The position numbers were made by a program, and so were the translations under genes. 35,474 nucleotides of DNA from Gemmatimonadota bacterium (GTDB lineage: Bacteria > Gemmatimonadota > Gemmatimonadetes > Gemmatimonadales > Gemmatimonadaceae). Below are positions 17,450 to 23,425 of this stretch, in pieces. The first letter of the stretch is position 1. Each line of letters starts with the position of its first letter. Location: NCBI GenBank assembly GCA_947461225.1, contig CANHJV010000019.1, forward strand, positions 1-35,474, written 5' to 3'. Below the pieces are notes generated by a model. That model saw nothing but the letters and a program-made list of their open reading frames with translations, had not been told where the DNA came from and made no database searches.

Positions 17450-19692
17450 CAGAACGCCTGGCCGAGGCCGAAGTGGAACGTGAGTCGAGAGAGTACACCG
17501 CGGCCGGTCGTCGGGCGGTATGTACTGGGGCACTCGAAAATGTCACTGGCGCGTGGATCGCTGATATCGCGCGGACTCGCGCAGAGAATGTCGCCGGTCG
17601 TGCCCTTGTTGTCGCCGGCGGTAAAGAACAGGGCCCGACCGGCCCGTGGCTCGTAGGGCTGATAGCCGACATCCATGCGGAAGGGGCCCAGCGGGGTCAC
17701 GACGCGCAGGCCGAGGCCGGGCGTTGCCCGAAGGTTGCCCCAGCGGAAACCTTCGGAATGCGTTTCCCACACATTGCCGGCGTCGACGAAGGCCGCGAAT
17801 TGCAGGTCTTCGGCGATGAAGCGGAATCCGCGACGCCACTCGAGATTGGCGACGACCATGGCGGTGCCGCCACGCGGCACGGCGCGATCGTAGCCGGCGC
17901 CATCTTTCACAACGACCACGCGTGCGCCGTTGGCGCCCACGGTGTCGAGCACGCTGGCGGCCGACACGACGTACACCAGCGGCCCCAGCAGATTCTGCTG
18001 GTAGCCACGCACCGAGTTCTGCCCGCCGGCGAAGATGCGCTCCTGCTGCGGGATCAACGGCGATCCATCAACGAGTTCGGCGCCAGGAGCAAACGCGCGC
18101 GACATCTGCACCCGCGTGCCGATCACGCCGCCCGCGAAGCGGAAGTAGGTGGACGCTTCTCCGGTGCCACGATAGAACGTGAGCGACTTGACGAGCGGCG
18201 AGAACGTCTGGCCGGCCCGGACATCGCCGCGCACGCGCGAACCGCGCGAGGGATCGACGGCATTGTTGGTACGATCGTGCGACGCGCTGGTGCTGAGAAT
18301 CCCGACGCTGCGACCAAACAGGGAGAGGACAAAGTCCTCCGGGCGGCACTGGCCGAATCGCGCGCACGACACGGCAGGATCGGTGATCGTCTTGCCGTTC
18401 TCGTACTGAAAGCCGGCGGTGCCAGCCGTGCGCGGCGTGAACTGCCGAGCGAGTTCGACGAGCGCACCGACCGTCGTTTCACGCAAGTACGCGAACGGTT
18501 CACCGCGACGCTCGCTGTACACCGTGAGCACCGGCTGGACGGGCCAGCCGAACAGGCGCGTATTCGACAGGGTCGATCCGACGTAGTAGTTCAGCTTTTC
18601 ACTGAACGGATCGAGCCGCAGCGCGCCGGAGCAGAGCGCGGGGGCGAAATCCGTTGGGGTGCCGACTCCGATCTTGGATGCGCGCGCCGAGAGCTCAACC
18701 CGACGACCAACACCGAGGAAGCCCCGGTCGGTGACGCGCCCTTGCATTCGGATGCAGTCCTGCGTGGCCCACCCCATGCCGACGCGAGCGGCGCGGGTCC
18801 GCGCTTCAGCGACGGCGACCTTGAGGTCCAGTACGCTGTCGCGGACGCCCGTCAGGGGTGTGAGGGTGTCGATCAACACCAGTCGAAAGGCTTCGGAGCG
18901 ATACAGATCGCGCTGCGCATCGAGGATGGCGCTGGCCTTGAACCGATCCCCCGAGCGGATCGAGACCAGGCGCGCCACGTCGGACGAGTCGACGCGCGCG
19001 CTCCCTTCCCGCAGTGGCTGGACCTCGATCTGCACGGTGCCGATCGACACCAGCTGGCCCACGGTGAAGCGCAGCGTCAGCGTCGCGCGTGCGGCGGCGG
19101 AATCGATGGCTACGCTACTCTGCGGGCGCGCGGCACGGGCGTAGCCCGCGTCCCGGAGGCGCGAGAGGACCTGATCGATCGTGGTGTCGACGCGCGTGCG
19201 ATCGAAGCGCTTATGCTCGAGGGCACGCAGCGGCGCGTCGAAGCCGCGCTTGCCGGCGGCGGCCTCGGGCAGTCCCTGGATCAGCACCGTGTCGAGGACC
19301 GCCTCGGGGCCCGGGGTGATCGCGAACAGCAGCCGCACCCCATTGCGACGACGATCGATGGTCGGGGTGACGGAGGCCTGAAACCACCCGACCTGCCGAT
19401 GCATGACGGCCAGGCGCAGGGCATCGCGGCGGAGTTCGAGCGAGTCGAGGCAGGGGGCGGCGCCAATGCGAAACCATCGCGTCTTCATCCCCGGCTCGCG
19501 CGAAACGATGCTGGCAGCGAGCGTGATCGCGTCAAACCGCGGACTGCCGGCAAACTTGACCGACCGCACGCGCTGGGTGACATCGCATCGGGACATGCGC
19601 TGCGCACTCGCGGACAGCGGCCAGAGCGCCGCCGCCATGATGAGCAGAGCGAAGGAAATCGAAGAAAGGGGGAATACGTGAGGGCGGCGCAT
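17449..19692 (-). CDS. BamA/TamA-family outer membrane protein
   Basis: A 747-residue Omp85-family protein with a signal peptide (MRRPHVFPLSS, hydrophobic core, ASAQ), POTRA-like repeats over about residues 25-370, and a D15-type 16-strand barrel in the C-terminal half. POTRA-type segments include VRSVKFAGSPRFDAITLAASI and LVSIGTVQIEVQPL. Barrel motifs include NSVRGYQQNLLGP, the conserved VRGY of BamA/TamA loop L6, and PLGPFRMDVGYQPYEPRAG. It ends in LTFHFGLGQAF, with the terminal Phe typical of outer-membrane barrels. Directly followed by the TamB-like gene, it most likely acts as the TamA partner rather than as the essential BamA. The ATG at 19692 was chosen because it begins the signal peptide; no clear Shine-Dalgarno precedes it. 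Confidence 0.92.
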   Translation of the reverse strand: MRRPHVFPLSSISFALLIMAAALWPLSASAQRMSRCDVTQRVRSVKFAGSPRFDAITLAASIVSREPGMKTRWFRIGAAPCLDSLELRRDALRLAVMHRQVGWFQASVTPTIDRRRNGVRLLFAITPGPEAVLDTVLIQGLPEAAAGKRGFDAPLRALEHKRFDRTRVDTTIDQVLSRLRDAGYARAARPQSSVAIDSAAARATLTLRFTVGQLVSIGTVQIEVQPLREGSARVDSSDVARLVSIRSGDRFKASAILDAQRDLYRSEAFRLVLIDTLTPLTGVRDSVLDLKVAVAEARTRAARVGMGWATQDCIRMQGRVTDRGFLGVGRRVELSARASKIGVGTPTDFAPALCSGALRLDPFSEKLNYYVGSTLSNTRLFGWPVQPVLTVYSERRGEPFAYLRETTVGALVELARQFTPRTAGTAGFQYENGKTITDPAVSCARFGQCRPEDFVLSLFGRSVGILSTSASHDRTNNAVDPSRGSRVRGDVRAGQTFSPLVKSLTFYRGTGEASTYFRFAGGVIGTRVQMSRAFAPGAELVDGSPLIPQQERIFAGGQNSVRGYQQNLLGPLVYVVSAASVLDTVGANGARVVVVKDGAGYDRAVPRGGTAMVVANLEWRRGFRFIAEDLQFAAFVDAGNVWETHSEGFRWGNLRATPGLGLRVVTPLGPFRMDVGYQPYEPRAGRALFFTAGDNKGTTGDILCASPRDISDPRASDIFECPSTYRPTTGRGVLSRLTFHFGLGQAF

Positions 19693-19891: not shown

Positions 19892-20506
19892 ATGATCCCG
19901 ATCACCGACGTTGCCGTTGGCTTTCTCATGGCGTGGCAGACCGCTGTGACTCCCGGGCCGGTGCCCCTCGCCCTGCCGGTGGACTCCCTCCCGCAGCCGC
20001 GGGCGGCCACCGTCGCGCAGCCGGTCGGACTGACGATGCTCTCTGCGGATACCGTGCCACGCGTTCGCCGCAAGGCGGTCGTGTACAGCGATGGGTACGC
20101 CACGCGCGTGCGCATCCACAAGATGCTGAGCTGGGGAATGATTCCGTTGTTCGCGGCGTCCTACTTCTCGGGCGACCAGCTGCTCGAGAACGGCACCGAC
20201 GCCCCCGCGTGGGCGCGCACCATGCACGGTCCGGCCGCCACGGGGAGCGCCATCCTGTTCGGCGCGAACACCGTGACCGGCGGGTGGAACCTCTGGGAAG
20301 GGCGAAAGGATCCCAATGGGCGCACCCGCCGCATCCTCCATAGCGTGCTCTTCACCGCGGCGAGCGGCGGGTTCGCCTACGCCGGGACGAAGCTCGCAGA
20401 CGACGCCGAGCAAGACCTGAACGCGCGTCGCAAGCATCGCAACGTGGCGATCGGTTCTATGGGTGTTTCGACCGTGAGCTGGCTGATCATGTTGATCGGC
20501 AACTGA
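19892..20506 (+). CDS. Four-helix membrane protein with one His per helix (possible heme b)
   Basis: A 204-residue protein of unrecognised name. After a 60-residue N-terminal region with a weak signal-like start come four hydrophobic segments, each opened by a histidine. These are H76 in RIHKMLSWGMIPLF, H112 in RTMHGPAATGSAILFG, H150 in RILHSVLFTAASGG and H182 in KHRNVAIGSMGVSTVSW. Four helices with four such His residues recall diheme cytochrome b-like folds (inference). The motif WNLWEGRKDPNGRTRR joins helices 2 and 3. I chose the ATG at 19892 because GGAG lies seven bases ahead; the longer frame from 19691 has no signal and crosses the promoter region. It begins a same-strand run with a second membrane protein and two Rieske proteins, which supports an electron-transfer role. 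Confidence 0.8.
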   Translation: MIPITDVAVGFLMAWQTAVTPGPVPLALPVDSLPQPRAATVAQPVGLTMLSADTVPRVRRKAVVYSDGYATRVRIHKMLSWGMIPLFAASYFSGDQLLENGTDAPAWARTMHGPAATGSAILFGANTVTGGWNLWEGRKDPNGRTRRILHSVLFTAASGGFAYAGTKLADDAEQDLNARRKHRNVAIGSMGVSTVSWLIMLIGN

Positions 20507-20530
20507 CCCTTCTCCCGCCAACGCCACCCG

Positions 20531-21061
20531 ATGCTTGAAACGCTGACGACCCTGCTCCTCCCCTGGTCGGAACTCTATGCCGACAGCGCTTGGATTCCCA
20601 CCACGGTCCTTGCCGTGCACGTACTGGCGCTCTTCGCTGGCGGCGGCATCGCGATCGCCGCGGATCGTCGCGTGCTGCGGTCCACTCCGGGCACGCGCGA
20701 GGCATATCAGGCGGCGGCGGAAGATCTGCGCGGCACGCACGCCATCGTGATCGGTTCGCTCGCACTGATGGTGGTGAGCGGCGTCGCATTGGCGACGTCC
20801 GACATCGGGACCTTTGCCGTCTCGAAAGTGTTTTGGGCTAAGATGGCGACGTTTACGGTGCTCATCGCAAACGGCGCCTTCATGCGGCGTACGGAATCGC
20901 GGGTGCTCACCGCGGCGACTGATGCCGGTGTGGCGATCGATCAGACGACCCAGTGGCCAAGTCCACACCTGCCGTGGGCCGTCCTGAAGCGATCGGCGAC
21001 GGTGAGCCTGGTGTCGTGGTTCCTCGTCGTCCTACTGGGTGTCGTGCTCTCCGATATCTAA
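20531..21061 (+). CDS. Four-TM integral membrane protein in the Rieske cluster
   Basis: A 176-residue membrane protein, not recognised. Four hydrophobic stretches are visible: about 24-44 (TTVLAVHVLALFAGGGIAIA), 69-89 (THAIVIGSLALMVVSGVAL), 98-117 (FWAKMATFTVLIANGAF) and 156-173 (ATVSLVSWFLVVLLGVVL). H30 lies in helix 1 and H70 at the start of helix 2, with H146 just before helix 4. Two such helices could ligate one heme b, but this is inference. It follows the first membrane gene by 24 bases and precedes the first Rieske gene by 39, all in the same direction. No Shine-Dalgarno is obvious before the ATG at 20531. Alternatively it may be a quinone-site or structural subunit. Confidence 0.82.
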   Translation: MLETLTTLLLPWSELYADSAWIPTTVLAVHVLALFAGGGIAIAADRRVLRSTPGTREAYQAAAEDLRGTHAIVIGSLALMVVSGVALATSDIGTFAVSKVFWAKMATFTVLIANGAFMRRTESRVLTAATDAGVAIDQTTQWPSPHLPWAVLKRSATVSLVSWFLVVLLGVVLSDI

Positions 21062-21100
21062 GGTTACTTCCCTGTCCCTTTCGCCACGGAACGCCGTCGT

Positions 21101-21589
21101 ATGACTGATTCCCCATCGCCCTGCACCGGCTGTTCGGGACGCCGAGATTTCCTGCGCACGGCCCTCACGGGCGCGGCGTCCATCGCGGCCCTCTCCGCCC
21201 TCGGTCCGGTCAACGCGATCGCTGCGATCGCCCCTCGCACCCCGGGTGGCGCCGTGCGCTACGCGTTGCCGGCAGCCGATGGCGTGTCGATCGACAGCGC
21301 CAACGAGGTGATTCTCTGTCGCTCCAACGGCGACGTCTTCGCGTTCGCGCTGTCGTGCCCGCACCAGAACACGGCGCTGAAAACCATGCCCAAGAATGCC
21401 GGCTTTCAGTGCCCGCGCCACAAGTCGAAGTACCTGCCGAATGGGACATTCGTGAGCGGGCGCGCCACGCGGAACATGGACCGGTTGCAGATCACGCGCG
21501 ACGGCGCGCAGATCGTCGTGGACCCGGACATCGCGTTCGAGAGCGACGTCGACCCGGCGAAGTGGGCGGCGGCATTGGTCAAGGTCTGA
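21101..21589 (+). CDS. Tat-exported Rieske 2Fe-2S protein
   Basis: A 162-residue Rieske iron-sulfur protein. The cluster ligands are Cys86/His88 in CPHQNTALK and Cys104/His107 in CPRHKSKY. The disulfide cysteines of bc1-type Rieske proteins are absent, which usually means a lower potential. The N-terminus has a twin-arginine motif RRDFLR followed by a hydrophobic stretch to about residue 44. It should therefore be exported folded and either released or kept by its uncleaved helix. Before the twin arginines is a CTGCSG motif, echoed in the next gene. It probably shuttles electrons with the two membrane proteins upstream (inference from context). It is unlikely to be a dioxygenase ferredoxin, because it is exported and no oxygenase is nearby. 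Confidence 0.92.
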   Translation: MTDSPSPCTGCSGRRDFLRTALTGAASIAALSALGPVNAIAAIAPRTPGGAVRYALPAADGVSIDSANEVILCRSNGDVFAFALSCPHQNTALKTMPKNAGFQCPRHKSKYLPNGTFVSGRATRNMDRLQITRDGAQIVVDPDIAFESDVDPAKWAAALVKV

Positions 21590-21627
21590 GCCAGTCCGGC
21601 CAGATCACTTCTCTACACGGGGGCATC

Positions 21628-22080
21628 ATGTCTGACTGCACGAACTGCCGGGGCGCCGGCGTGAACCGACGGGCGTTTCTGGCCACGAGTTCGGCGCTGG
21701 CGATCACCGCCGTCCTGGCCGCCTGCGGTAGCGACAGCGAGGAGGGTTCCACGATGACCGGGCCGCGCAACGTGAACGCGACCGTGACGCTGGCCAACTA
21801 CGCCGCCCTCGGCACCGTCGGCGGGATCGCCGTGATCAGCGGCGCGGGTACCCCCATCGCCGTGGTGCGCGCCTCCGCGACCCAGTACCGGGCGTTTTCG
21901 CTGATCTGCCCGCATGCCGGCACCACCGTCGCGATCAGCGGCACGGGCTTCCGTTGCCCGAACCATGGCGCCACGTTCAATGCGAGCGGCGCGTGGACCG
22001 GTGGCGAGCGAACCACCGGTCTGTTCGAATTCACCGTCGCCTCGAATACCACCGCCGGCACCATCACGATTATCTCCTGA
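21628..22080 (+). CDS. Tat-exported Rieske 2Fe-2S lipoprotein
   Basis: A 150-residue second Rieske protein. Ligands are Cys94/His96 in CPHAGTT and Cys110/His113 in CPNHGATF; again no disulfide pair. The N-terminus has CTNCRG, then NRRAFLATSSALAITAVLAAC. This combines a twin-arginine motif with a lipobox whose Cys33 would be lipidated, so it is probably a membrane-anchored, Tat-exported lipoprotein. I chose the ATG at 21628 because the longer reading from 21355 overlaps the previous Rieske gene, and a G-rich stretch (cggggg) lies just ahead. It starts 38 bases after the first Rieske gene. The two Rieske proteins have different ligand loops and are not a simple recent duplication. Confidence 0.92.
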   Translation: MSDCTNCRGAGVNRRAFLATSSALAITAVLAACGSDSEEGSTMTGPRNVNATVTLANYAALGTVGGIAVISGAGTPIAVVRASATQYRAFSLICPHAGTTVAISGTGFRCPNHGATFNASGAWTGGERTTGLFEFTVASNTTAGTITIIS

Positions 22081-22084
22081 CGTC

Positions 22085-23425
22085 ATGCCCACACTCGTTT
22101 CGCCTCGCAGCGCCGGCACCACGATCCCGGCGCTGTTGTCGTTTCTGACCCTCTCGCTGGCGTCGCCGAGCATCGGCCACGCGCAGCAGCCGAAGGGCGC
22201 CGCCAAGGCCGCGGCCAAGGCCACGCCGACTGAGGCGGCACTCGATCGCCTCGCCAAGCAGCCGGTCATGGTGAAGGCCATGGCCGCCCTGCAGTCCGAG
22301 AACGAGTGGACGCTGACCGAACAGGCCGCGCTCTGCGAGATTCCGGCGCCGCCGTTTAAAGAAGCGGCGCGCGCCGCGGCGTTCCGCGACAAGCTCGCCG
22401 CCCTGGGCGTACAGAAGCTGCGCATCGACCGCGAAGGAAACGTGATCGGTGAGATCACGGGCACCGGGCCAGGACCGACGCTCGTGTTGAGCGGTCACCT
22501 GGACACCGTGTTCCCCGAAGGGACGAATGTGACGGTGAAGCGCGAGGGGACCAAGCTCACCGCCCCCGGCATCGGTGACGACTGCCGTGGATTGGCGGCG
22601 GTGCTGGCCACCACACGGCAGATCACCGCCAACAAGATCCCGTTCGCCGGCCGGATTCTGGTGGTCGGCACCATGGGTGAGGAAGGCCCGGGTAATCTGC
22701 GCGGCGTGCGGGCGCTGTTCAGCGGCCCGCTCAAGGATTCGATCGACATGTTCATCTCGATCGACGGCACCGGCTTCGGTATCACGAACGGCGCCGTGGG
22801 CAGCAATCGCTATCGCGTGTCCTACAAGGGCCCGGGCGGGCACAGCTACGGCGCGTTCGGCATGCCGAATCCGATTCACGCCATGGGCCGTGCGATCGCG
22901 AAGATTGCCGATCTCGAAGCGTCGTCGAACCCGAAGGTCACCTTCAACGTCGGTCTCGTGTCCGGCGGCACGTCGGTGAACTCCATCTCGGCCGAAGGCG
23001 TGATGGACATCGACCTGCGGAGTGAATCGGCGGCCGCGTTGGCCGACATCGACGCCCGCTTGCAGACGGCGCTGCGTCAGGCCCTCGCCGAAGAGAAGGC
23101 GCGCTGGCCCAAGTCGACCGTGCCGCTGGCGCTGGTGATCGACACGACCGGCCTGCGTCCAGCCGGCACGACGGCAGACACCTCGTTCATCGTGCGCACC
23201 TCGTTGGCCGCGGCCCGTACGATGAACGTGTATGCCCCGCTCACGATTTCGAGCACGGACGCGAACATCCCGATTTCCAAGGGCATCGCCGCGGTGACGC
23301 TCGATGGCGGCGGCGTGGGCCGCGGTGCGCACTCGCTTGACGAGTCGTACGACGATCGCACCGACGGCTACAAAGGCCCGCAGTGGATTCTGTTGGTCGT
23401 GATCGGCCTGCTAACCACACGCTAA
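22085..23425 (+). CDS. Secreted M20-family metallopeptidase
   Basis: A 446-residue M20/M25/M40 family di-zinc peptidase with a signal peptide (residues 1-33, ending GHAQQ), so it probably acts in the periplasm. Zinc-site motifs: SGHLDTVF (His138, Asp140), APGIGDDCRG (Asp165) and GTMGEEGPG (catalytic Glu199 and ligand Glu200). A C-terminal His lies in GRGAHSLDES. Dimerisation-domain features follow the lid around SYKGPGGHSYGAFGMPNP. The closest group by motif is the peptidase T-like branch, which takes di- or tripeptides. The ATG at 22085 is four bases after the Rieske lipoprotein stop, so it is cotranscribed, but its role in that module is unclear. Its stop overlaps gluQ on the other strand by four bases. 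Confidence 0.92.
   Translation: MPTLVSPRSAGTTIPALLSFLTLSLASPSIGHAQQPKGAAKAAAKATPTEAALDRLAKQPVMVKAMAALQSENEWTLTEQAALCEIPAPPFKEAARAAAFRDKLAALGVQKLRIDREGNVIGEITGTGPGPTLVLSGHLDTVFPEGTNVTVKREGTKLTAPGIGDDCRGLAAVLATTRQITANKIPFAGRILVVGTMGEEGPGNLRGVRALFSGPLKDSIDMFISIDGTGFGITNGAVGSNRYRVSYKGPGGHSYGAFGMPNPIHAMGRAIAKIADLEASSNPKVTFNVGLVSGGTSVNSISAEGVMDIDLRSESAAALADIDARLQTALRQALAEEKARWPKSTVPLALVIDTTGLRPAGTTADTSFIVRTSLAAARTMNVYAPLTISSTDANIPISKGIAAVTLDGGGVGRGAHSLDESYDDRTDGYKGPQWILLVVIGLLTTR

Follow-up and report, generated by a model that had tools for sequence, protein, structure and literature searches.

A set of four genes at positions 19892 to 22080 of a 35,474-nucleotide contig from a Gemmatimonadota bacterium of the family Gemmatimonadaceae (GenBank assembly GCA_947461225.1, contig CANHJV010000019.1, C19 in our numbering; the whole contig is hereafter called the window) probably encodes a small membrane-bound electron-transfer module, consisting of a two-heme membrane protein (A), a membrane protein with a quinone or heme site (B) and two putatively exported Rieske proteins (R1 and R2) as electron carriers. 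Computation revealed a conserved gene order, invariant residues, predicted folds, a membrane-like pattern in the helix cores and a tie between B and R1, from which we infer heme binding, quinone as the donor, the direction of flow, the acceptor and the physical pairing of the parts. The source genome comprises 3.7 Mb and is 89% complete. The four genes are listed below.

19892..20506, + strand: gene A, 204 amino acids; signal-like segment, linker and four-helix bundle
20531..21061, + strand: gene B, 176 amino acids; four-helix membrane protein by prediction
21101..21589, + strand: gene R1, 162 amino acids; Rieske protein, twin-arginine motif, HKSKY starting at the second cluster His
21628..22080, + strand: gene R2, 150 amino acids; Rieske protein with a twin-arginine motif, a lipobox and HGATF

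The coordinates and reading frames of an earlier note on this DNA, which had described four same-strand genes separated by 24-39 bases, were found to be correct, with gaps of 24 (A-B), 39 (B-R1) and 38 bases (R1-R2). The start codon of gene A is the one chosen in that note and possibly lies further upstream, the open frame beginning at 19691. The building blocks of this real and conserved set are known, and their combination is apparently undescribed: no description of it appeared among the listed titles and abstract openings of literature on Rieske proteins, Gemmatimonadota, cytochrome b561, DUF4079 and DUF2214, a search whose coverage took in little from subscription journals or preprints.

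Conservation and distribution of the gene set

Protein searches detected A in 29 of the 30 genomes of the genus, including the source genome, and in 122 of 179 genomes of the family, representing 23 of 35 genera, while a profile search of 298 genomes sampled evenly across the phylum was positive for 90. Forty stretches of 4-14 kb were fetched; 37 of them surround an A gene and the others cover three further Rieske loci of the source genome. The order A-B-R or A-B-R-R was present in 26 of the 37 A loci. A scan over 84,980 species genomes, which overlap the other sets, with one short peptide pattern gave 152 pattern matches and 117 relatives of A, the best 80 of which were kept as loci. Gene order was counted in the 67 of these loci with at least 2.5 kb past A. 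Exactly A-B-R-R was observed in 36, followed by A-B-R (9), A-R (7), A-R-B-R (4) and A-R-R-B-R (3); the remaining loci comprised six singleton patterns, each with at least one Rieske gene, and two loci with A alone. Overall, A was accompanied by a Rieske gene in 65 of the 67 loci and by B in 57, with eight loci containing A and a Rieske gene without B. Since the loci were retrieved via A, these counts describe the companions of A and not how often B or R occur without it. Whether the genes stay together in relatives had been proposed as a check in the earlier note, and the recurrence of the A-B-R-R order indicates a neighbourhood that is more than chance; a chance neighbourhood was rejected on the counts for Rieske and B. 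At three loci (L054, L058 and L060) a single protein encoded between A and B combines two Rieske domains.

When neighbouring genes were clustered over 119 partly overlapping loci, A was present in 98 of them, Rieske genes in 82, with their antisense shadow in 41, and B in 76; no conserved fifth partner was found, every further cluster being present in at most 26 of these loci. In two of 69 loci a further called gene encoding CxxCH was present near A, between 3 kb before and 4.5 kb after it.

All A relatives with informative titles among the 80 loci belong to Gemmatimonas or other Gemmatimonadota, two of them to the Longimicrobiaceae, a family of this phylum, and the rest are titled only 'bacterium'. 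The whole-genome searches covered the phylum and the wider scan used the one short pattern, and the module may also occur elsewhere. A plasmid search with A and B returned no match.

Protein A

Four histidines, H76, H112, H150 and H182, are invariant in all 41 A sequences and are the only histidines of the window protein. As the earlier note had proposed, each of them resides in a helix of its own: AlphaFold2, run with 38 sequences, predicted helices at residues 69-103, 106-136, 144-172 and 176-202 with a mean predicted local distance difference test score (pLDDT) of 82.9, exceeding 90 in each ten-residue block from residue 61 to 200, and the histidines are offset from the predicted helix starts by 7, 6, 6 and 6 residues. 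Because adjacent helices of a bundle run antiparallel, H76 and H150 would be close to one face of the membrane, and H112 and H182 to the opposite face. In the model the layout of these two His pairs is that of a two-heme four-helix cytochrome b, and each pair may bind a heme. The invariant residues F87, F123 and F161 are each located exactly 11 residues past a histidine, the invariant G94 and G130 18 residues past one and the invariant M200 18 residues past H182, a regular spacing that places one conserved stripe on each helix of A.

In the helix-core stretches, which we delimited ourselves for the hydropathy comparison, the variable third of the positions is 4% polar with a mean hydropathy of 1.48, compared to 8% and 0.53 for the conserved third, and hydrophobic variable positions were also found in the cores of B. 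Such positions would be expected on an outer surface of A facing lipid, as in a membrane protein. A soluble periplasmic A, suggested by its signal-like N-terminus and low hydropathy, was dropped because the variable core positions are hydrophobic. Window A starts with an N-terminal signal-like hydrophobic segment followed by a Pro-rich linker of about 45 residues (19892-20060). By eye, many A members have such a start, followed by a linker that is variable and rich in Pro and Ala, which is unusual in a four-helix membrane protein. Residue 158 in the middle of helix 3 is polar in 68% of the 38 sequences, mostly Asp by eye and Ser in the genus, and is a possible proton-handling site.

Window A remained under all Pfam and NCBIfam family cut-offs, scoring 14.0 bits against DUF4079 (PF13301; cut-off 31.4), and DUF4079 was weakly matched by 30 of 38 A members (best 5e-6). 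Weak matches were also obtained to DUF420 for seven of the 38 and to prokaryotic cytochrome b561 (PF01292) for four (best 0.0025) but not for window A itself. Searches of the source genome for DUF4079 and DUF2214 gave no match, and a profile comparison of A with B did not support kinship between the two.

Cytochromes of the b561 type are two-heme four-helix membrane proteins. The top sequence match of the A profile in the PDB was to 4D2, a designed two-heme four-helix bundle, with an E-value of 0.0024 made up of three weak repeats, none of them significant singly, and in a structure search with Foldseek 4D2 ranked seventh for A (E 0.15) amid generic bundles. As described in PMC10400981, 4D2 was built by joining four copies of a peptide designed after complex III cytochrome b, and two hemes are held across opposite helices by its four histidines. 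A has in common with 4D2 and the b561 type the four helices and the four histidines in two pairs at two levels, while significant homology to them was not found and A adds the signal-like segment and the linker. We take this as a likeness in plan, with descent unproven.

Protein B

For B, AlphaFold2 predicted long helices at residues 21-50, 56-90, 99-131 and 146-171 with a mean pLDDT of 90.8, in line with the four helices and the histidines in helices 1 and 2 described in the earlier note. These two histidines, H30 and H70, are invariant in all 32 B sequences, as are K104, D45, R46, D91, N114, G115, S159 and W163, while the third histidine, H146, is variable. Judged by sequence positions, H30 and K104 are near the N-terminal face of B, and H70 is near the other face together with D45-R46. 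A bis-His heme between helices 1 and 2 of B is judged unlikely: H30 is about nine residues into helix 1, H70 is at the opposite membrane end, and the two are probably at different depths.

Like A, window B remained under all family cut-offs of Pfam and NCBIfam, with 18.1 bits against DUF2214 (PF09980; cut-off 34.1) and no match to UPF0093 (HemJ). Among 30 B members weak matches were observed to DUF2214 (22), DUF6644 (16), HemJ (11, best 0.0014) and CopD (5, best 0.0008). The resemblance of B to these families is remote.

The HemJ and CopD matches bear on two other explanations. In the first, the set would handle heme, B being a HemJ-like porphyrinogen oxidase or heme-maturation factor, A a heme-holding partner and the Rieske proteins electron acceptors. 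Besides the weak HemJ matches, B resembles HemJ, by eye, in having a His in its first helix and a Lys in its third. We nonetheless consider heme handling improbable, given that the source genome has a separate HemJ (contig C173, 163 bits), that B is missing from the eight loci with A and a Rieske gene as well as from the two with A alone, and that a profile comparison of B with five HemJ proteins, based on shallow alignments, gave a probability of 1.7%, a result that also weighs against our own reading. In the second, to which the CopD matches point, the four histidines of A would bind a metal, copper or iron, instead of heme, and the module would serve metal handling or sensing. This is very improbable, as these histidines are spread unclustered over four helices at two levels and the conserved Phe/Gly stripe would suit porphyrin packing.

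Rieske proteins and their association with A and B

Both Rieske proteins recognized in the earlier note exceed the Pfam cut-off for PF00355 (R1 31.8 and R2 39.7 bits; cut-off 20.3) and contain the C-x-H ... C-x-x-H ligands. R1 and R2 also carry an RRxFL motif, scoring 13.5 and 16.5 bits with the NCBIfam model for twin-arginine translocation signals (cut-off 16.7), and R2 has a lipobox-like LAAC. Shortly ahead of the twin arginine, a CxxC or CxxxC was observed in 52 of 62 R1-type and 49 of 65 R2-type proteins (L108-L187); in the window the corresponding regions are 21101-21160 and 21628-21680.

The Rieske domains collected numbered 130 and came from 72 of the 80 loci; two of them had an incomplete motif and were dropped from the counts. 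A motif rule divided the remaining 128 into 62 of the R1 type and 66 of the R2 type. In a FastTree tree of 131 tips an R1 clade of 65 (support 0.76) consisted of all 62 rule-based R1 domains, window R1 and two domains that the rule had not recognized as R1, namely the Rieske domain of L153 and the first one of L176.

The lack of disulfide cysteines described in the earlier note is true of window R1 (CPHQNT..CPRHKS) and R2 (CPHAGT..CPNHGA) and of the R1 type as a whole (0/62) but is not a module-wide property: of the 66 relatives of the R2 type, 15 possess the two cysteines and 51 have neither. This pattern of both bc1-type cysteines or neither, and never of one, was noted at L137, L155, L160, L163, L164, L169, L173 and other loci, and the bridge was seemingly gained or lost as a unit. 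Past the second cluster His, window R1 keeps a Ser/Tyr pair (HKSKY) and R2 has Ala/Phe instead (HGATF); the Ser/Tyr pair is present in 60 of the 62 R1-type domains, the remaining two having Ser/Phe, while Ala/Phe is the commonest pair in the R2 type (48/66).

The closest solved sequence relatives of R1 are six structures with E-values of 3e-7 to 6e-6, including AioB, the small subunit of arsenite oxidase, as well as 9rk4 and 9rk3, which by their names are probably the Kuenenia proteins of PMC12954380. That source describes the small Rieske proteins of Kuenenia as parts of Rieske/cytochrome b complexes and as having the disulfide, unlike R1 (PMC12954380). According to the same source, the Ser and the Tyr raise the Rieske potential by about 130 and 65 mV, respectively, as judged from yeast mutants, and by analogy R1 would be expected to be the higher-potential centre of this window and R2 the lower.

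An R1-type Rieske was present by the motif rule in 59 of the 61 B-bearing loci (among 72 loci). The two exceptions were L116, which is cut at the contig end, and L153, whose Rieske falls into the R1 clade of the tree, and with rule and tree combined B occurs with an R1-type Rieske in 60 of 60 loci not cut by a contig end. Five more B loci show no Rieske, their contigs stopping soon past B. The association of B with R1 was significant (Fisher p 1e-7, with L116 excluded and kinship among the loci uncorrected), and B appears tied to R1, while A occurs with R1, R2 or both.

Proposed electron route

In the arrangement we favour, A would be a four-helix two-heme b-type cytochrome, with H76 and H150 of helices 1 and 3 binding a heme near one face and H112 and H182 of helices 2 and 4 a second heme near the opposite face, and hemes near both faces would allow electrons to cross the membrane. 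In B, H30 and K104 would form a His/Lys site close to one face, and H70, D45 and R46 a His/Asp/Arg site close to the opposite one; binding of quinone and/or a single heme is the most likely role of B. The putatively exported R1 and R2 would act as periplasmic one-electron carriers, R1 working with B and R2, a putative lipoprotein, with A. The likeliest direction would be from the quinone pool to A and B, on to the two Rieske centres and from there to a periplasmic acceptor encoded elsewhere.

Several observations weigh against this reading. The A helices are unusually low in hydrophobicity, with a mean best 19-residue hydropathy of 0.86-1.27 compared to 1.63-2.22 for B and 1.73-2.31 for b561, and helix 3, the weakest of A by uncharged runs, has a median run of 13 residues compared to 15 in B helix 3. 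The topology cues of A conflict, the signal-like N-terminus placing H76 and H150 outside and the charge bias (31/38) placing them inside. Of the three outcomes that the earlier note named as refuting its proposal (genes not staying together, variable histidines, membership in a known non-redox family) none was observed, A and B reaching no family cut-off, although weak matches of A members were observed to Na_H_antiport_1 (6/38, best 3.6e-6) and to DUF4235, a family of unknown function (7/38). The fragmentary 4D2 match belongs here as well, as do the Foldseek searches of A and of B against the PDB, neither of which gave a hit below E 0.001, generic helical bundles being the best in both cases. 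A comparison of A with 17 Gemmatimonadota b561 proteins, based on shallow alignments, resulted in a profile probability of 0.4%. With regard to the partners, R1 is present without B in three (rule) or four (tree) of the 11 loci lacking B, and 12 of the 61 B-bearing loci yielded no R2-type motif, some of these being cut and one (L112) split, so that the A-R2 pairing is loose. Finally, a gene for the electron acceptor is not encoded near the module.

The same module could also run inward, R1 and R2 collecting a periplasmic reductant and passing electrons via A and B to the quinone pool. The Ser/Tyr pair retained almost throughout the R1 type would fit such a flow, as would the presence among the closest solved R1 relatives of AioB, which serves a periplasmic oxidase. 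As no other conserved gene cluster adjoins the module, even the most frequent one reaching no more than the 26 loci mentioned above, we regard the inward direction as unlikely, if with an appreciable chance. A small chance is given to the idea that A, B, R1 and R2 form an independent kind of quinol oxidase that combines Rieske and b-heme centres and does not derive from cytochrome b. The quinol would then be oxidised at a B/R1 site, one electron passing to the Rieske protein and the other to the two hemes of A, and electron splitting of the complex III type would have evolved twice, here with eight helices.

If the module is confirmed, many Gemmatimonadota would have a path for electrons in the membrane that escapes annotation, as two of the four proteins fall below every family cut-off. 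A would be a natural single-chain counterpart of the designed 4D2 bundle with its one His per helix, and the module would pair Rieske and b-heme centres in a system separate from the complex III family, on which ideas about the origin of complex III could be tested.

Relation to complex III and other known systems

Besides the module, the source genome contains the following pair.

Contig C221: Rieske protein with the disulfide motif CPHLGC..CPCHRS beside a cytochrome b gene

The cytochrome b encoded there carries cytochrome c domains. In the 179 family genomes A and cytochrome b (PF13631) were both detected in 65, A only in 57, cytochrome b only in 24 and neither in 33, and the two were not associated (p 0.20 in the family and 1.0 outside the genus; many of these genomes are incomplete drafts). 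The lack of association makes the set look like neither a part of complex III nor a plain substitute for it, consistent with the earlier view that it is not a standard complex III; replacement of the canonical complex was examined in the same genomes and no sign of it was seen. The least probable explanation we considered has the four proteins as accessory subunits of the canonical cytochrome bc complex. The two systems do have Rieske domains in common and the genome does encode a cytochrome b/Rieske pair, but the absent association and the genomes with A only disfavour this explanation, which we find very improbable.

The cytochrome b of complex III has two histidines on each of two helices. 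With the bc1 and b6f complexes the module shares the membrane b-type heme sites proposed here and a Rieske protein, in the module putatively exported, but it contains no cytochrome b and no cytochrome c1 or f gene, A has one histidine per helix, and the disulfide cysteines are missing from the R1 type. The Pfam cytochrome b models did not match A or B up to an E-value of 5. A Rieske protein beside group 2a hydrogenases, as described in PMC7784904, stands in a different context.

Neighbouring genes and other Rieske loci of the source genome

The strongest Rieske match of the source genome is a ring-hydroxylating oxygenase alpha subunit on the 7 kb contig C149 (L001:1387-2472), on which no A or B gene was found. 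A further protein of 492 amino acids on contig C45 (L057:7334-8812, - strand) contains a twin-arginine motif, a lipobox and two Rieske domains, and the stretch of about 250 residues that separates the domains gave no further Pfam match; neither A nor B was detected in the surrounding 14 kb.

In agreement with the earlier note, no gene for cytochrome b, cytochrome c or an oxygenase adjoins the four-gene set in the window. Upstream of A, on the opposite strand, it is flanked by genes for Omp85 (113.7 bits) and TamB (151 bits), and downstream of R2 by the following gene.

22085-23425, + strand: M20-family peptidase (53.4 bits), beginning 4 bases past R2

Because of this short distance the peptidase gene may be co-transcribed with the module. 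Clusters of M20 peptidase, Omp85 and TamB genes recur in 26, 26 and 22 of the 119 partly overlapping loci, respectively, and occur in all ten stretches fetched from the genus. The M20 peptidase is also present at L045, a locus of the genus without R2.

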